Shown here piece after piece: positions 5,616 through 13,179 of a stretch of DNA of 58,494 nt (position 1 is the first letter of the stretch; each line of letters opens with the position of its first letter). Position numbers and translations under genes: made by a program. The stretch spans positions 1 through 58,494 of the forward strand of contig JAETSX010000047.1 in NCBI GenBank assembly GCA_021769425.1, in the 5' to 3' direction. A model generated the notes under the pieces. It saw only the letters and a list, made by a program, of their open reading frames with translations. It did not search any database and was not told the origin of the DNA. The stretch is from Eubacterium sp. Its GTDB lineage: Bacteria; Bacillota; Clostridia; Lachnospirales; Lachnospiraceae.

Positions 5616-6155
5616 TATGTTTTTCGGTTTTTTTTCAAAATTTTTTACACTTACCAATCTCCAACTTTGTCCCACCAACCTACCACACTCAAAACTATTG
5701 TCGGAGAGGGATTCAATGTATCGCGCCGTTTCCCTTATGATAGTGAAGTCCCCTTCCCCAACCAACTTTTTCTCTTTCTTTGTGGACATAAATTCTCCCA
5801 TTCATACCTTTTAACGATTGCTGCTATCGTTAAAAGGAGGTGCAAAATCAGAAAACGGAGCAGTCCCCGCAACAGAAAAAAGACCTAAAAAGCAAAAAAA
5901 ATAAAACCGCAAAATCCGTGGAAAGGCTTATTTCCACGCATTTCTGCGGTTTTCCATTGTATCAATTTCGGTGTTGCGATGTTCCTCTGCAACTGCGGAT
6001 ATAATCCCGATGACAGCCATTTTATATTTTTGGATTCCCCCTCTGAACCGAGAAGAACAAACGGCAAGATATAACATAAGTTATAAAAACGACTTAACAT
6101 TTCCCATTTCATTTTTCTTTTTCCTCTGTACACTCATAAATGTACTTCACTTAAA
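5616..6155. other. Intergenic stretch with hairpins and gene shreds
   Basis: No convincing gene. It holds a perfect 12-bp stem at 5807-5837 (CCTTTTAACGAT and its complement), and two small leftward frames of doubtful reality: 64 codons from an ATG at 5789 with GGGAGA before it, and 30 codons from 6020 to 5928 (begins MAVIGIISAVAEEH). Neither is recognised. They may be tails of lost genes at the border between the ars operon and the accessory cassette. Confidence 0.4.
5903..5953 (-). terminator. Hairpin terminator after cassette gene D
   Basis: AAAACCGCA and TGCGGTTTT bound an inner stem GTGGAAA/TTTCCAC. On the minus strand the stem is followed by a T-rich run, so it can end transcripts that come from genes A-D and insulate the ars operon. 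Confidence 0.65.
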
Positions 6156-6977
6156 TTACAGAACGTCATCTTCTTTTATTAAAATGCAATGATCCACAAC
6201 AACTTTCTTTGTATCCGAAATCCGAAGCATTAGGTTATTTCCTCCTGGGCAATTGCGATAGCAATCATTCAAATAGAAAAGTGCTTTTTTTATAAAGAAT
6301 CCCGCTCTTTCTTCTTTAGTAAATAGTCCATCTATGCCATCATATATGATTTCGAGCATAGGCACTTTAAAAACAATACCATAATATTTAGATTGTTTTT
6401 TGTAATCTCTCCATAAATCTTTTCCTATAAATCTGCCTAAATTTTCAAGGATTTCTGGTCCTCTTTGCAAATCCTGAAAATACCCTTCTGATGTTTTATC
6501 TATATTAGGCCAAAAAGAAAAACCATTAACACAGTAATCTGCCTCACCTAAATATCCCAATCTTTTTGCCAATAAATGAAAATGCCCACTTTGTAATATT
6601 TGTTCAGGTGAAATCAATCTATTATCATAGTAAAACTCCAAATTATCCTCCCGCAGCATGAAATGGATCTTATTTTTCTTCAAAAAATCGGAAAACTCAT
6701 TTTCTGTGATTAGCAACTCCCTTAAAGGCCACAGTTCTTTAGGTTGAACGATATGTCTGCTTAAATGATAAACATATATTTCATCTATAATATCTAAATC
6801 CGCATATTCAGTTATAAAATCATCTATTAAACTTTCATATTTATCCCAATCAGAATGAAAGCCACATAAACATTTTTCGCTGATATCATGCATTGTTTCA
6901 TAAAGAAACATTTCATCCACATCCATTAATGTGGCAATGTCTTCTTCCATATCTTTATAAGTTTCAGTCCGAACAAT
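6156..6977 (-). CDS. Unrecognised cassette gene D, possible ART-like fold
   Basis: A 273-residue soluble protein, acidic, with no signal peptide. The start is the ATG at 6977 (AAAGGAG nine bases before it). Visible blocks: YHLSRH at residues 71-76, KELLITENEF-like segment at 87-97, a well-formed block RLGYLGEADYCVNGFSF at 140-156, and a strand IVFKVPM at 202-208. The order 'Y-H-[ST]-x-[RK]' then a late hydrophobic strand 'FKVP' is also seen in gene C, so the two may be distant relatives. The Y-H-[ST] start recalls ADP-ribosyltransferase-like folds, but that is inference; no catalytic residue can be assigned. It follows gene C by 42 bp and closes the cassette. AT-rich compared with flanking housekeeping genes. 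Confidence 0.6.
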   Translation of the reverse strand: MVRTETYKDMEEDIATLMDVDEMFLYETMHDISEKCLCGFHSDWDKYESLIDDFITEYADLDIIDEIYVYHLSRHIVQPKELWPLRELLITENEFSDFLKKNKIHFMLREDNLEFYYDNRLISPEQILQSGHFHLLAKRLGYLGEADYCVNGFSFWPNIDKTSEGYFQDLQRGPEILENLGRFIGKDLWRDYKKQSKYYGIVFKVPMLEIIYDGIDGLFTKEERAGFFIKKALFYLNDCYRNCPGGNNLMLRISDTKKVVVDHCILIKEDDVL

Positions 6978-7019
6978 CATACAACAACATCTCCTTTCCC
7001 ACTTTTTCAAATATTCTTT

Positions 7020-7559
7020 CTAATAATTTACCTCTTTTGTATACGGAATCAGCTCCAATATGTTTTCTTTTGGAACATCAGATTCTGTCATACTCGTAAA
7101 TTGAATATCATATTTAAAATCAAAAAAATATTTAGCCGCATAATGTGACACAAACTGGTAAAGAATTGTTTCTTTATCAAAATCTACTACATCGGCAAAT
7201 GGCATCCTAAATTTCACGACAAAAGATTCCCCCTTATTCTTTAAGGGAGCATACAATTCTGGGTGACTATCTTTTAATGCCCATCTCGCAATCTCCCCAC
7301 CAATGTTCTCGCAAAACTGTTCACAACCAGCACTGCCTTCCTGATCTATTTGTCCCATATCAGAAAAGAAACACAATTGAGCCTTTCTACTCGCTACAGA
7401 ATATTTCCTCTTATATTCTTTTTCTACAAGTCTCATTATTTCACCCATGCCTTGTACATCAAAGCCAATACCATCCAATGATTCAATAAGAAGGGAACTA
7501 TAGGCTTCCCATTCATTAGTTTTTAACCCTTGTTCAAGAACCTGTGATTTACTTAACAT
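7020..7559 (-). pseudogene. Cassette gene C, 3' part (split by insertion)
   Basis: This frame is the C-terminal 179 residues of a protein whose N-terminal 83 residues lie at 9412-9660. Joining the halves at the duplicated TTAACAT restores one open frame of 262 codons through ACA AAA ATG TTA AGT AAA. The restored protein has YHATK at 79-83 followed by a SxxxVLEQGLK helix, a layout like the H-[x]-T ... GL start of several ADP-ribosyltransferase-like families, and a late strand FVVKFRMPF. The 3' part opens with an ATG that belongs to the old reading frame; no ribosome site precedes it. It ends 42 bp before gene D. Function unknown; the intact frames on both sides suggest a recent break. Confidence 0.75.
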
Positions 7560-7603
7560 GATGTTGGGGTCAAAAGAGTTTTTAGAAACTCTCTGACTTC
7601 CTA

Positions 7604-9383
7604 TATAGTACCTTGAAAATTTTACACAATCCTTTTGAGGATAAGATTTTGCATATTTATCTGTGATATTGGATAGTCGGCTTCTGCTTTATCATGCCAA
7701 TACCGGGTTTTCGGCATAGTGTCCCAGGCCCTTCCGATATGTGAAGAGCTTTTTAAAGTTCAATGCCCCGATTTTGCAGCCAAAGAAAAATCTTCCGCGT
7801 ATCAGTCCTCTGACTGGCATCCTGTCAGTATGGTAGATTCTTCTCAAAATGGAGGGTACTGTTTCTACTCCATTTCGGATTTTAAAAAGATTGCGGAATT
7901 CTTCCGTTCCCATGTACCGTTGTTGCTTTGCACGTTCATGGGCTTTTACCGATACCGTTACTGAACTGACCCGTTTATGAATCTTCGCTTTGCACCGCCC
8001 TTTGTTCGGGCATCCTGCACACTGCTCTCTTTTAAACGATATATGGAACTGCTGGGATTTACTTCCTGTATATCCACAGGATTTTGGCTCATATCCTGCC
8101 GGACATCTCAGGACCTTTGTTCCTGTTTCGTTAAAGACGAAATCTGCAAGGATATCATCGACAGGCTTTCCGGATAAATCGGTATTAACCAGACGGATGT
8201 TCTTTTCTTTGGCGAGATCATGGTTTGCTTTCCCTGAATAAGCACCGTCTGTAACAAGGATCGTTTCTTCTTCCTGTACTTCCTTGCGTCCCAGGCTGTC
8301 TTTCAAAAACTGGCTGTCGCTGCAGTTGTTCTGCTCGTACTGATAATCCGTGATGACAGAGCCGTTTTTACCGACCGTCTCTTCCAGATTGGCAGCATAC
8401 CCCCGATGTTCTTTCCCGGCTTTTTCCCTGAAAGTTGCATCTGGGTCAGAAGGATTCTGAAGTATTCCGGAATGAAGCCCACCGTCTTCTTTTGTGCGGA
8501 GACGGCGAACAGCTTCTTTTACAACGGTTTGTTCCGAAAGGCAGCGGGCCAGAAGCTGATATTCCGTAACGTCATCATAGTCGGAACCGCATATAGACAG
8601 TAGTTTATCTGCGTCTTCGAGGATGTTCTTTAATCGGTTATCCGTTTCCGAATCATTATTGTAGTAAAAGGTTCTGTTGTAATCATTCAGGTCACAATAA
8701 TGTCCAAAGTCTTCCGGCAGGACATCCGGATCATTTTTATGGAGATAAACAGCCAGCTTTGCCACGCAGGTATAAAGCAGCTCTGTACGGCTGAGTTTTT
8801 TGATATTTGCAGCAATCATCATAGAATCCATCCGCTTGATTCGGGGATTAAGATCCATCATTTTTGCGATTTTCTCACTCAAGCTTGTAATGCAGTTATG
8901 GAGTAAATCTATTCCGTAAGCAGACTCATAATCATAGCAGCGTTTGCGGAAGCGTGAAAGTGTTTTGTCACTCAGAGGCTGTTCTTCACAGCTTGTAGTA
9001 TGAAGAGCATACTGATACCGGGGATCCAGCATTAAATTTTCAACGATTTCATCATCCGAAATGCCGAAAACTTCTTTAATGATCAATGCACCAATACAGA
9101 CATTTACTGGTGTATTTGGTCTTGAGGCATTAGAAGAATATAGAACTTCAAATGGTTCTTCATTTATGAAGGGGAAAATATCCTCTGCAAATGATTTTGC
9201 CCATGAGTGTTCTAATGCCTTTTGCTCCCGGAAAGTCAGCCCGGAAAAACTGTCTGTAAGAGATAACTGCTGATAAGAATTCGTTCTGAATGACATATGT
9301 ATTTACCACCTTCACTTGATAGATACAGTATATCACAGTGGGAGGAAAATAGTGTGTTTGTGTAAAATTTTCAAGGTACTATA
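7604..9383 (-). mobile_element. IS1182-family insertion sequence
   Basis: Perfect 26-bp inverted repeats lie at 7604-7629 and 9358-9383 (outer part TATAGTACCTTG). The outermost TATA on each side may be the 4-bp target duplication, in which case the element proper is 7608-9379, about 1.77 kb. It holds one transposase gene read leftward. It is inserted in the loop/stem of a palindrome, in line with the liking of some IS1182 members for hairpins and palindromic targets. Confidence 0.9.
7692..9296 (-). CDS. IS1182-family transposase
   Basis: A DDE transposase of 534 residues, full length for the family. The N-terminal part (about 1-110) contains the LTFREQKALEHSWAK segment and the VNVCIGALIIKEVFG helix. 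The catalytic core shows RMDSMMIAANIKK (first Asp), VTDGAYSGKANHD (second Asp) and an ending with IRNGVETVPSILRR, where the family has its Glu. A cysteine cluster, CAGCPNKGRCKAK near residue 430, is the usual zinc-like insert. No frameshift or early stop is seen, so the copy may be active. The ribosome site AAGGTGG is about 11 bases from the ATG. Confidence 0.95.
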   Translation of the reverse strand: MSFRTNSYQQLSLTDSFSGLTFREQKALEHSWAKSFAEDIFPFINEEPFEVLYSSNASRPNTPVNVCIGALIIKEVFGISDDEIVENLMLDPRYQYALHTTSCEEQPLSDKTLSRFRKRCYDYESAYGIDLLHNCITSLSEKIAKMMDLNPRIKRMDSMMIAANIKKLSRTELLYTCVAKLAVYLHKNDPDVLPEDFGHYCDLNDYNRTFYYNNDSETDNRLKNILEDADKLLSICGSDYDDVTEYQLLARCLSEQTVVKEAVRRLRTKEDGGLHSGILQNPSDPDATFREKAGKEHRGYAANLEETVGKNGSVITDYQYEQNNCSDSQFLKDSLGRKEVQEEETILVTDGAYSGKANHDLAKEKNIRLVNTDLSGKPVDDILADFVFNETGTKVLRCPAGYEPKSCGYTGSKSQQFHISFKREQCAGCPNKGRCKAKIHKRVSSVTVSVKAHERAKQQRYMGTEEFRNLFKIRNGVETVPSILRRIYHTDRMPVRGLIRGRFFFGCKIGALNFKKLFTYRKGLGHYAENPVLA

Positions 9384-9660
9384 GGGACTTTTGACCCCAA
9401 CATCTTAACATTTTTGTAGCATGATATAAGACCAATTCATGACTTTCCATACCAAAAACCAATCTTTTATAAAACTGCTTTGACAAATATGAAAAAGGGC
9501 CATAATAATCTTCAATGGCACACCGTACATCATTCTTATAGCATATATTATTATTTTTGATTTTATTAACTATCTCCTTCGGTAATTTAGAAAAGTCCGC
9601 CAAAATAATACTTTCTATCTCGTTTGGTATTGTCCTCAAGTCAGCTACATCTATCAGCAT
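9379..9660 (-). pseudogene. Cassette gene C, 5' part (split by insertion)
   Basis: The first 85 residues belong to gene C; the last nine (RCWGQKSL and stop) come from the inserted palindrome. Start ATG at 9660 with GGGGAGA before it, 12 bp after gene B, so genes B and C were one transcript. It ends in the block LVLYHATKML, exactly where the reading frame resumes at 7559. No recognised domain in this part apart from the YHATK motif, which may begin an ADP-ribosyltransferase-like fold (inference). Confidence 0.75.
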
Positions 9661-9672
9661 CCGTAATCTCCC

Positions 9673-10092
9673 CTATCTTTTCGTAATCAGTTTTTTGCCG
9701 ATATCCATTATAGGTTTTCGGAACTTTATAACCCCTACCACTGCTGCTACTGATGTAAGAATTTGCAAAGTATAATTTTTATGATTATTCTGCTGTTTTT
9801 CATAAAATTCTTTGTTTTCAGTATCCTTCTGATACCGTTCTTTCTTCATTTCAGCCATTCTATCTCTAATAGCCTGTCTTTCCACTTCCGTTTCCGCCTT
9901 CGCCATATTCTCCCTTAATATTTCATACTCAATTGAATCGGCTTCCTTTAATGTTTCCAAATACCTATCATTCGAATTTATTATTTTGCTATCGAACTCT
10001 GTTACTTCTTTTAACGCATTCATTGTGGCATCTTTATATAAGTTTGCTTTACGAAATGAACTCTCACTTTTACTTATTCTCGTATCTGCCAT
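9673..10092 (-). CDS. Cassette gene B: coiled-coil protein with C-terminal TM
   Basis: A 139-residue, highly charged protein. Residues about 10-100 are almost purely helical in composition (Glu, Lys, Arg, Ala, Met; for example NMAKAETEVERQAIRDRM) and look like a coiled coil. A single hydrophobic segment, LQILTSVAAVVGVIKF, at about 109-124 is followed by a basic tail, so it is probably tail-anchored with the coil in the cytoplasm. The ATG at 10092 is preferred: AGGAGG is 7 bases before it. It lies between the candidate nuclease (A) and gene C. It could be a membrane scaffold or effector anchor for the cassette, but the sequence alone does not say. Confidence 0.7.
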   Translation of the reverse strand: MADTRISKSESSFRKANLYKDATMNALKEVTEFDSKIINSNDRYLETLKEADSIEYEILRENMAKAETEVERQAIRDRMAEMKKERYQKDTENKEFYEKQQNNHKNYTLQILTSVAAVVGVIKFRKPIMDIGKKLITKR

Positions 10093-10131
10093 GTTCAAGC
10101 CTCCTATTTATCATTTGGTTCAACCTTAATA

Positions 10132-11022
10132 TCATACAATTATGTTTTCAATTGGCAATTGAGATAACATTGCTGTAATTAAGGAATTTTTAAATGTTGG
10201 ATTATTTTCCACATCCTTATGTACTAATAAATCATCTATTGTCATTTTACCAGTTACTAAAGCCATGACTAAATCTTCATAGAAGCAAACTTCCTCATAC
10301 CCTCTATAATCGATTGCACTTGCTCTTACAAAGTTTTCTTCTAAAATAATATTTGAGTTAGAAATTCCACGTGAATATTGTTCTAATAATAATTCTCTAG
10401 CAACAACATCATAATCATGAGCTATATCAAAATACACAACGGGAACTTCATACCGCAAATTGCATAAATCTTGAAAAAAATACCCCATACCATTTCGGCT
10501 AACTTTTAATTGTAAACCAGCTTCTAAACCTGAAATCGAAGATGTCTTAATCATTGCTCTCATCCCTTCATCATCCACCCAAATAACATCTCTTTGAGTA
10601 TCAAAAGGATTGTATAAATTGGGATATAAATTTCGTGTTGATTTTAATCCTGTTCCTACAGCTTTAAATTTGGCCACTGTCTTATATTTTGCTTTCTTTC
10701 TTCTGGCAATTGATAACCATTTTCTATTAATTTCTTCATCCTCATGACATCTTCGAACAATCACAGCCTCTGCAATTTTTCCTAGCAAAGACATTGTAGT
10801 CTGAACAGGATTCATCTGATAAACAATTTTAATTGCCAGTTTATTATTTTCGTACCCCACAATATCCAAATCATCATATAAAATATCAAACAGTTTCTCT
10901 CCCGTATAGTAATTGAGTATTTCCAGATTTTTCCTTCCATTTAAAAACTCATAATAAGGTTGCGATGCAATAATTTTTCCATTTCCATCTGTCGCAGCAA
11001 TTATCAGTTGACTTTCAAACAT
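10132..11022 (-). CDS. Cassette gene A: possible PD-(D/E)xK-like nuclease
   Basis: A 296-residue soluble protein, first gene of the four-gene cassette, with GAGGAGA before the ATG. The middle third has the order expected for restriction-endonuclease-like folds: a helix with Glu (GKIAEAVIVRR, E85), a beta hairpin with Asp (NPFDTQRDVIWVDDEG, D145), and a strand ending Q-x-K (AGLQLKV, Q171 and K173), followed by a strand and helix (YEVPVVYFDIAHDYDVV). The Q-x-K variant occurs in Mrr-like enzymes. This reading is mine and rests on motif spacing only. The N-terminal 70 residues look like a small beta-rich domain. No family name is recognised. AT-rich; no transposase homology. Confidence 0.6.
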   Translation of the reverse strand: MFESQLIIAATDGNGKIIASQPYYEFLNGRKNLEILNYYTGEKLFDILYDDLDIVGYENNKLAIKIVYQMNPVQTTMSLLGKIAEAVIVRRCHEDEEINRKWLSIARRKKAKYKTVAKFKAVGTGLKSTRNLYPNLYNPFDTQRDVIWVDDEGMRAMIKTSSISGLEAGLQLKVSRNGMGYFFQDLCNLRYEVPVVYFDIAHDYDVVARELLLEQYSRGISNSNIILEENFVRASAIDYRGYEEVCFYEDLVMALVTGKMTIDDLLVHKDVENNPTFKNSLITAMLSQLPIENIIV

Positions 11023-11319
11023 TATTCTCTCCTCTCTGTTCGAAAAAGTTTATAGCAATAAAATTTAATCTTCCATTTATTATACTTTATATCGACAAAA
11101 TCTCATATCTTTTTTATGTCATATTTCTGCAATACAAAAGCCAGATTCGTTAAACCTAGACAGCCGCTGACAGCTCCGACTTTTGATAATTCATTTCTTG
11201 AATTTTTTCTTCTAATATATCTTACTCCTGCCATGGCAAATGAATATTTTTAATCATAAACCATTTTATTGCAAACAATAAATCATTAAAATTCCTATCG
11301 TTAAAAATTGCACCCAAAC
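11023..11319. other. Intergenic region upstream of the cassette
   Basis: An AT-rich stretch of about 300 bp between gene A and a truncated flavodoxin. It holds one small leftward frame of 43 codons (11234 to 11103, begins MAGVRYIRRKN, with a hydrophobic middle GAVSGCLGLTNLAFVL), but no ribosome site precedes its ATG, so it is only a candidate. The cassette promoter is expected here; no strong -35/-10 pair stands out. Confidence 0.35.
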
Positions 11320-11334
11320 TCATGCTTGGGTGCA
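11309..11334 (-). terminator. Hairpin terminator after truncated flavodoxin
   Basis: TGCACCCAA pairs with TTGGGTGCA over an 8-base loop; on the minus strand the stem is followed by ATTTTT. It lies at the end of the broken flavodoxin gene and probably belonged to the DNA that replaced the gene's 3' part. Confidence 0.75.
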
Positions 11335-11760
11335 TTGTATCAAATTGTGGTACGCAAGCCAGATCGGATACCCGATATAAACAACGTCCGCTTTCTTCAC
11401 TGCTTTCTTAATGGCTTTCAGGTTAGCGATTTCCGGGCGCACTGTGCTCTGGGCAGGGGACGCTGCCGATTCATGTTCTTTCACCACCCGGCTGTTTTCA
11501 TCCCCATAATCCAAATCTGCATCTGTATAAGGATTTTTTGCCTTAATTTCAATTACTTTGCCCGCCGTTTTCTTCCCAATTCTTTTGGCCGTTGCCTTTG
11601 TAGTTCCCGTACCTGAGAAATAAAGCACTACAATGTTTTTCTTAGTCGCTGCTTTTGTTTTCGCCTCAGCAGTTCCTACATCTGCCAATGATATTACCAT
11701 TACAAGGGCAAGGATAAAAGATACTGCCCGCAAAACATTTTTTCCTCTTTTTTTCATCAT
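11320..11760 (-). pseudogene. Secreted flavodoxin, C-terminus lost
   Basis: The 146-residue frame starts with a signal peptide (residues 1-33, ending AEAK), then a flavodoxin fold with the FMN phosphate loop YFSGTGTTKATAKRI near 48-62, the segment PYTDADLDYGDENSR and the strand VVYIGYPIW. Full flavodoxins of this group go on for about 60 more residues (a WWG loop and the last sheet strands). Here the frame is lost right after GYPIW and stops in a terminator hairpin, so the gene is a 5' remnant. A close relative with the same layout is intact at 15860-16684. Confidence 0.8.
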
Positions 11761-12363: not shown

Positions 12364-13179
12364 TTACATAGTTTGATTTCCGAACTTTTCAAGATACTCT
12401 TTGGCGGCTTCAAATGTGATATTTAATTTATCCTGCAACCTGCTCAAAAGTTCGTCCTCGGAAAGTCCGAAGTCAAGCCCTGTTTCAATAATGCCTTCTG
12501 CCTTGCCAATTTCCTTATTTTCTTGGTCGCGCATTAACAATGTCATATATTCATGCCTCCATTCCCTGTTTTTCCGGGCATTTTTCACTGCCTCTTCCAG
12601 TTCGTCCACGAATGGGTCTGCCGGCTTCTTCCCGGCTACATAATCCAAAAACGCTTTCAGGTCAGGGCTGACGTCGTCCATAGTCCCTTTCGCGTTCAAG
12701 AATATTTTAGTTGTTCCGTCCTTCAGGAAGATGCTGTTATCTTCCTTGCAGGTGTTTTCAAACGTATAAATATGTCTGCCCATGCCGAACTGGTCGAACG
12801 GGCAGATAAAGATGATATAGCTTGGCTTCAGCTTCTTATAGGGTTCGCCTTTGTCAATCATCTGCATATCCAGTAAACTTTGGTAATACCGTGTCCGTTT
12901 TGGCAGTTCCTTTGACGTGCCGACCTGCATTTCAATGTCGTAAACAGTGCCTCTGCCGTCTTTCACATATGCATCGAACCGGACGCTTTTTGCGTCTATG
13001 TCGGGGCGTATCGCCTTCTGCGCTTCCGGGTATTCTATACGGTCTATCTTTAAATCCGGCAGTATCCTTTGTAAAAGTCCTTTGCACAGCTTGGGGTCCT
13101 GCATGATTTTCCCGAAGATGAAGTCATTTGATATCTGCAATTCTTCCCATGCCGTATTGTCAATCATATGGTTTTCCAT
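12364..13179 (-). CDS. Rpn-family PD-(D/E)xK nuclease (transposase-like)
   Basis: A 271-residue member of the Rpn/PDDEXK_2 family, recombination-promoting or phage-defence-linked nucleases often found near mobile DNA. Motifs: SNDFIFGKIMQD at the N-terminus, then VRFDAYVKDGRGTVYDIEMQ with the catalytic Asp and the E-x-Q end near residues 67-85, and the RTRYYQSLLDMQMI helix. The C-terminal 60 residues are a charged helical tail ending in a small helical motif, as is usual. The ATG at 13179 or the second Met (four residues on) could start it; GAAAGG precedes. It stands alone among element remnants, so it may have been carried in. Confidence 0.88.
   Translation of the reverse strand: MENHMIDNTAWEELQISNDFIFGKIMQDPKLCKGLLQRILPDLKIDRIEYPEAQKAIRPDIDAKSVRFDAYVKDGRGTVYDIEMQVGTSKELPKRTRYYQSLLDMQMIDKGEPYKKLKPSYIIFICPFDQFGMGRHIYTFENTCKEDNSIFLKDGTTKIFLNAKGTMDDVSPDLKAFLDYVAGKKPADPFVDELEEAVKNARKNREWRHEYMTLLMRDQENKEIGKAEGIIETGLDFGLSEDELLSRLQDKLNITFEAAKEYLEKFGNQTM

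Follow-up and report, generated by a model that had tools for sequence, protein, structure and literature searches.

Introduction

Toxins of the ADP-ribosyltransferase (ART) type come together with antitoxins, as in DarTG and CmdTAC (excerpt of PMC11618068). Phage defence can also be provided by a nuclease encoded by a single gene: SNIPE is a membrane-bound nuclease with a DUF4041 domain that acts at genome injection (excerpt of PMC13190303). In phage HK97, superinfection is excluded by gp15, a small protein with a predicted inner-membrane location that prevents superinfecting phages from injecting their DNA (Cumby et al. 2012 as cited in an excerpt of PMC10883804). Here, we compare these systems with a cassette of four genes, A, B, C and D, in a stretch of 58,494 nucleotides of Eubacterium sp. 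(contig JAETSX010000047.1, assembly GCA_021769425.1; the whole stretch is called the window). The genome that contains it (G000) has 4.9 Mb in 228 contigs.

With moderate probability, in our view, the cassette combines independent single-gene modules of the anti-phage or conflict type that are stacked on mobile DNA, rather than forming one conserved four-gene system. This reading is based on several observations: the families occur singly (in 52 of 54 loci), homologs of A, C and D have defence genes as neighbours, homologs of A and D are found in a cargo slot of phages, the genes are under purifying selection, and the identity between the two known cassettes falls from A to D and beyond. The four genes would have been assembled on mobile DNA, and they probably form one transcription unit. 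A would cut invading nucleic acid, C would use NAD+ to ADP-ribosylate a target of the phage or the host, and D would protect alone, possibly with NAD+.

The four families occur mostly alone

A six-frame scan of 70 loci for the four families gave a match in 54 of them: 40 had only A, six only D, four only C and two only B, and two had all four. Both of the latter are the same locus of the relative G014 (Lachnospiraceae bacterium A2, KE159636.1) under two names. None of the 52 other loci had more than one of the families, the gene order was not kept in unrelated genomes, and three D loci found later had D only. These numbers have to be read with the extent of the loci in mind: at least 3 kb downstream of A were available in 31 of the 40 A loci and less in the other nine, the 40 include three pairs with a likeness of at least 95% (L010/L011, L042/L044, L046/L048), and where a locus had no annotation, its genes were called with a simple picker of open reading frames (ORFs) whose strand choice can be wrong. 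Within the genomes searched, only two close relatives have all four genes in this order. The sequence-only reading had proposed one defence or conflict system with this gene set, to be recognised by a conserved A-B-C-D order. For the four-gene order, this idea is not supported by the loci searched; its defence part is borne out in so far as A, C and D have homologs beside defence genes.

In G014, A, B, C and D are intact and in the same order. The shared DNA corresponds to positions 5797-11362 of the window minus an insertion element, and the rest of the 29 kb stretch of G014 that was compared does not align to the window. The identity between the two copies drops from A (99.0%) and B (98.6%) via C (97.7 and 96.7% for its two parts) to D (93.3%) and the downstream DNA (84.6%), and this suggests that the two ends of the shared block have different histories. 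The ratios of nonsynonymous to synonymous substitution rates (dN/dS) are low, with 0.07 for A, 0.11 for B, 0.08 for the 3' part of C and 0.13 for D; thus, the proteins are kept by purifying selection. Since the searches also gave 170 homologs of A, 56 of C and 40 of D (E <= 0.001), it is confirmed that the four genes are real rather than chance reading frames.

Several of these data speak for one integrated system in which the nuclease A, the coil B and the NAD+-using proteins C and D work together, with parts that evolve rapidly or are optional so that relatives were missed, and they thus weigh against a stack of independent genes: the gaps between the genes are short (39 bp between A and B, 12 bp between B and C, and 39 bp between C and D), the order is the same in G000 and G014, all compared genes are under purifying selection, with D at a dS of 0.25, and two A loci (L041, L026) have short unnamed genes after A that look helical with hydrophobic stretches, as judged by eye and with no Pfam match above the cut-off. 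However, no two of the families met in any of the 52 other loci, an A homolog with 73% identity (L039) has no B in the remaining 0.9 kb downstream, and homologs of A and D stand alone between phage tail genes. We therefore regard an integrated system as improbable.

The families are rare. A was detected in three of 99 relatives (own genome included), one of them probably by chance; a match in G013 (E 9e-4) was discarded for this reason. In the phylum, A was present in one of 378 genomes, the own one. C and D were each found in five of 299 genomes of the family, and in one (the own genome) and five of 275 genomes of the order, respectively (own genome included). Neither C nor D had a match in plasmids. 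A is encoded on plasmids of E. coli and Acinetobacter; one E. coli type, that of the 111-kb plasmid described below, was found in seven and another in two of 5,426 E. coli genomes, and all of these copies are plasmid-borne. C had no match in phages, and its profile gave nothing in viral contigs. The D profile also gave nothing in viral contigs at first, and one locus after the alignment had been widened.

Some homologs of A, C and D adjoin defence genes

For D, recognised defence genes lie within about three genes in five of the nine loci outside the genus whose surroundings were analysed. In L073, the BREX genes for PglZ and BrxL are followed by a GmrSD gene and, 11 nt further on, by D. In L095, D comes 40 nt after a PDC-S50/Schlafen-type gene and is itself followed by a ThsA-like SIR2-STALD gene; such a gene follows D in L096 as well. 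L097 has D with a TdeIII-type restriction enzyme and two methylases, and L056 has it with methylase-like genes, as judged by their likeness to those of L066. Three loci (L054, L055, L057) show no recognised defence gene near D, and L068 is a phage. Among the four other C loci, two have recognised defence neighbours: C begins 30 nt after HsdR in L064, and a broken C adjoins a type II methylase and a restriction enzyme in L066; L065 and L067 show none recognised.

This is paralleled by a pooled PADLOC scan of the C and D neighbours, which matched 94 families at E <= 1e-20 for 51 proteins, as compared to 26 families for 73 control proteins; the figures count families (25 of them listed) rather than proteins. 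The scan took in neighbours up to three genes away from C or D that encode at least 70 aa, at 11 loci (L054-L057, L064-L067, L095-L097); the phage L068, the viral contig L073 and the partial match in G063 were left out. The control consisted of 15 hand-chosen stretches from eight of the same genomes and that of G057; it is not clean, as it contains matches to PDC-S02, IetA, mad3 and a ThsA-like protein.

For A, only chosen neighbours were scanned. In L015, a GmrSD/HEC-06-like gene precedes A by 30 nt; in L013, the protein before A has the N-terminal and spacer domains of MmeI; and in L016, A adjoins a gene whose match to Swt1-type HEPN is borderline. On a 111-kb E. coli plasmid, an AbiGi-family gene is located 0.7 kb beyond A, with two opposite-strand genes between them.

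Short proteins of the MmeI N-terminal type stand directly before A homologs in two distant bacteria (L013:6659-7780, with MmeI_N and MmeI_hel, and L023:3775-4980); the L023 protein is a relative of that in L013, with 32.5% identity.

Homologs of A and D occupy a phage cargo slot

Homologs of A are found directly before the tape measure gene in the Agathobacter phage NatCom_13861 and in an R. albus prophage, and a D homolog occupies the same slot in the Ruminococcus phage NatCom_2329; NatCom_6238 also carries A. The genes 5' of the slot were taken as tail assembly chaperone genes by their position; the records label them hypothetical. All three cases analysed (A in L043 and L018, D in L068) have a promoter-like site (at least 10 of 12 positions, extended -10) before the gene and a terminator-like site after it; the L018 promoter was sought within 140 bases before A. 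In length-matched random stretches of these loci, such promoters occur in 0.4-1.8% and such terminators in 3.7-7.7% of cases.

In 14 other phage records, chosen besides L043 from 31 that matched the tape measure query, the slot was empty in four, probably empty in one and filled in nine. Its other cargo includes, as examples, genes for a glyoxalase and a GNAT protein, an HTH gene and a reverse-strand HNH gene. Three of six other filled slots tested have promoter hexamers identical to those of L043; all six have a terminator-like site, and L084 is without a promoter-like site. This is thus a variable slot with exchangeable genes in gut phages of the Heliusvirales type (L043:5872-6991, L068:7914-8948, L018:7855-8936, L076-L089).

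The homologs of A and D in these phages have what marks a moron, i. e. an own promoter and terminator, a position between late genes and variability among phages. The window copy does not: the ORFs that flank the cassette include no tail genes, and the slot arrangement has no counterpart there. The moron gp15 of HK97 also follows the tail assembly chaperone genes, precedes the tape measure gene and is followed by a terminator. Because of the promoter and terminator and the position shared with gp15, the homologs of A and D are likely to be single-gene functions expressed from the prophage.

The slot also bears on the question of whom the genes serve. They might act for mobile elements, in anti-defence, competition between plasmids or phages, or lysogenic conversion, instead of defending the cell. 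The alternatives to A and D in the slot look metabolic, and A is present on the E. coli and Acinetobacter plasmids, as would fit such a role. At several loci, however, only tens of bases separate homologs of C and D from ThsA-like, BREX and restriction genes, a placement that speaks for defence islands, and we consider service to mobile elements unlikely.

Properties of the individual gene products

The most likely assignment of A is a PD-(D/E)xK nuclease-like protein of the QxK type that works as a single gene. E85, D145, Q171 and K173 are invariant in an alignment of 37 sequences, so that conserved acidic residues and the lysine of a QxK motif appear in order, and PD-(D/E)xK nucleases top the structure matches; these matches are weak, with low Z scores, and one-sided. 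A viral-structure search with A gave no match at E < 0.001, and searches of PDB sequences with the A, C and D profiles gave chance-level rows or nothing. The slot had also made us consider A as a membrane exclusion protein like gp15; this candidate was rejected, as the hydropathy of A shows no clear hydrophobic segment.

For C, the most likely role is that of an ADP-ribosyltransferase effector, and its copy in the window is broken. It starts with a YHAT motif, and ADP-ribosyltransferases head the structure matches of the modelled G014 protein; the matches are weak but one-sided, and we count the predicted fold as that of an ART. H80, Y103 and E172 are invariant, along with other residues, in an alignment of 26 sequences and form a candidate triad that is judged by sequence only. 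The sequence-only reading had noticed the spacing of a PD-(D/E)xK fold in A, a likeness of the starts of C and D to ADP-ribosyltransferases, and a coiled coil with a C-terminal membrane segment in B. The weak structure matches support the first point and, for C, the second.

As to B, it is probably a small helical protein, as had been noticed, and perhaps attached to the membrane: the predicted membrane segment is unproven, since the C-terminal hydrophobic stretch is weak, with a best 19-residue Kyte-Doolittle mean of 1.40 as compared to 1.23 reached by the presumed non-membrane protein D. Two further relatives of B were found. In G329 (L074:8063-8381), a remnant with about 90% identity over 55 residues adjoins a transposase that looks like IS256 by eye, with none of A, C and D in the vicinity; in G214 (L075:197-1568), a distant relative precedes a gene with a weak match to SprT-like peptidases (E 3e-4, below the cut-off).

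C genes are often broken, those in L065, L066 and the window (7020-9660) among them. Among six genomes with C, the gene is intact in G014 and G057, broken in G000 (by an element) as well as in G338 and G040 (by stops), and partial in G193. This might suit a gene that is costly to its host, and it leads to the idea that C is an ART toxin and B its small partner in a toxin-antitoxin pair, with A and D as passengers. B is small and located 12 bp before C, and the known toxins DarTG and CmdTAC do have antitoxins (excerpt of PMC11618068). Yet the four other C loci have no B relative in the neighbourhood of C, the B relatives in G214 and G329 come without C, and plain decay would fit the broken copies equally well. 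A toxin-antitoxin pair of B and C thus seems quite unlikely to us, and we continue with C as an independent module of the stack.

In our reading, D is a second stand-alone gene of the defence type, which possibly uses NAD+ as well. It starts with a YHLS motif, and H72, Y167 and E176 are among the invariant residues of an alignment of 14 sequences; the likeness to ADP-ribosyltransferases is one of motif. A comparison of the C and D profiles revealed no relation, and the D profile gave nothing against PDB sequences.

In two genera, D is followed in the same order by a SIR2-STALD (ThsA-like) gene and then by a gene whose short product belongs to the ThiC radical-SAM family (L095:7856-11245, L096:506-3897). 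The two ThiC-family genes match Pfam PF01964 with E values of 8e-55 and 3e-55. A ThiC-family protein is unexpected within a defence-like set, and, judged by titles, none of the papers that a search for ThiC together with SIR2/STALD and phage defence brought up deals with such a set.

It is tempting to speculate, as a very unlikely idea, that D represents a new class of NAD+-handling immune proteins: before the SIR2-STALD and ThiC genes (G857, G903), it would replace the TIR sensor ThsB and make or sense a signal derived from ADP-ribose, and in the window it would be a single gene stacked with an ART and a nuclease. If D is linked to NAD+, its position before SIR2-STALD genes would be a new route into Thoeris-like signalling.

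The cassette in the window

The frames of all four genes are open and are read leftward with ribosome-site-like sequences 5' of their starts, as the sequence-only reading had it; the start of D was moved from 6977 to the ATG at 6980, which makes the C-D gap 39 bp instead of 42. Two further statements of that reading agree with our data: the genes are more AT-rich than their surroundings (31-35% GC as compared to 46-47%), with 31.4% GC for A, 33.6% for B, 30.6 and 35.2% for the pieces of C, 31.5% for D, 47.2% for the left and 46.4% for the right flank, and they belong to no family that can be named, as Pfam, NCBIfam and PADLOC gave no curated match.

Table 1. Genes of the cassette and the element that interrupts gene C (positions in the window).
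Feature	Position	Strand	Description
Gene A	10132..11022	-	296 aa; PD-(D/E)xK nuclease-like (predicted)
Gene B	9673..10092	-	139 aa; small, probably helical; C-terminus weakly hydrophobic
Gene C, 5' piece	9379..9660	-	ORF extends into insertion element; intact homolog in G014, L005:16250-17038
IS1182-like element interrupting C	7560..9403	-	~1.84 kb; transposase 7692-9296 with transposase domains; flanks align to G014 on both sides
Gene C, 3' piece	7020..7559	-	ADP-ribosyltransferase-like fold (predicted) in intact relatives
Gene D	6156..6980	-	274 aa; unnamed family; ART-like by motif only; start ATG 6980

The transposase of the element that interrupts C scores 142.5 bits against the IS1182 model NF033551, under the cut-off of 270. 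Upstream of the cassette, a PDDEXK_2 (Rpn-type) transposase-nuclease gene (12364-13179) is part of the mobile debris. The genes of the cassette may be co-transcribed from upstream of A, where a promoter-like site with 10 of 12 positions is located at 11106-11079; the region has 22 such sites as compared to 20.7 expected by chance.

Comparison with known systems

Gene families that have no curated match are repeatedly found next to defence genes, and two of the families have a phage cargo slot in common. Each gene can be tested by itself, and the slot, with its recurring promoter and terminators and its exchangeable genes, may lead to more functions encoded by prophages of common gut bacteria.

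A resembles the QxK-type (Mrr-type) PD-(D/E)xK nucleases by its invariant E, D and QxK residues and its top structure matches; it differs from them by the lack of a sequence family match and by the low Z scores. With SNIPE, A would share nuclease-based phage defence by a single gene, a parallel that is purely functional: SNIPE contains DUF4041 (excerpt of PMC13190303), whereas A has no Pfam domain, and no membrane segment was found in it.

C differs from DarT, DarTG and CmdTAC in that it has no sequence match to them in Pfam, NCBIfam and PADLOC, no partner like DarG or CmdA/CmdC was identified for it, and about 70 extra N-terminal residues of C lie outside the part that was matched. For D, the likeness to Thoeris is that two homologs directly precede a ThsA-like SIR2-STALD gene; the next gene at these loci, however, belongs to the ThiC family, and a TIR gene is found further down in L095 only. 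In the cassette itself, neither A, B, D nor the pieces of C match ThsA or TIR proteins in PADLOC and Pfam, as the effector of Thoeris and its TIR partner (ThsB) would.

The homologs of A and D in gut phages have the same slot position as HK97 gp15, with a promoter before them. In contrast to gp15, which is small and predicted to be located in the inner membrane (excerpt of PMC10883804), A is a nuclease-like protein of 296 aa that has no clear hydrophobic segment, and the window copy has no adjoining tail genes. The four families are unnamed in the libraries searched, by which we do not claim that they are absent from the literature; they would belong to a known kind of system, single-gene modules of the defence type located in islands and in a cargo slot of phages.

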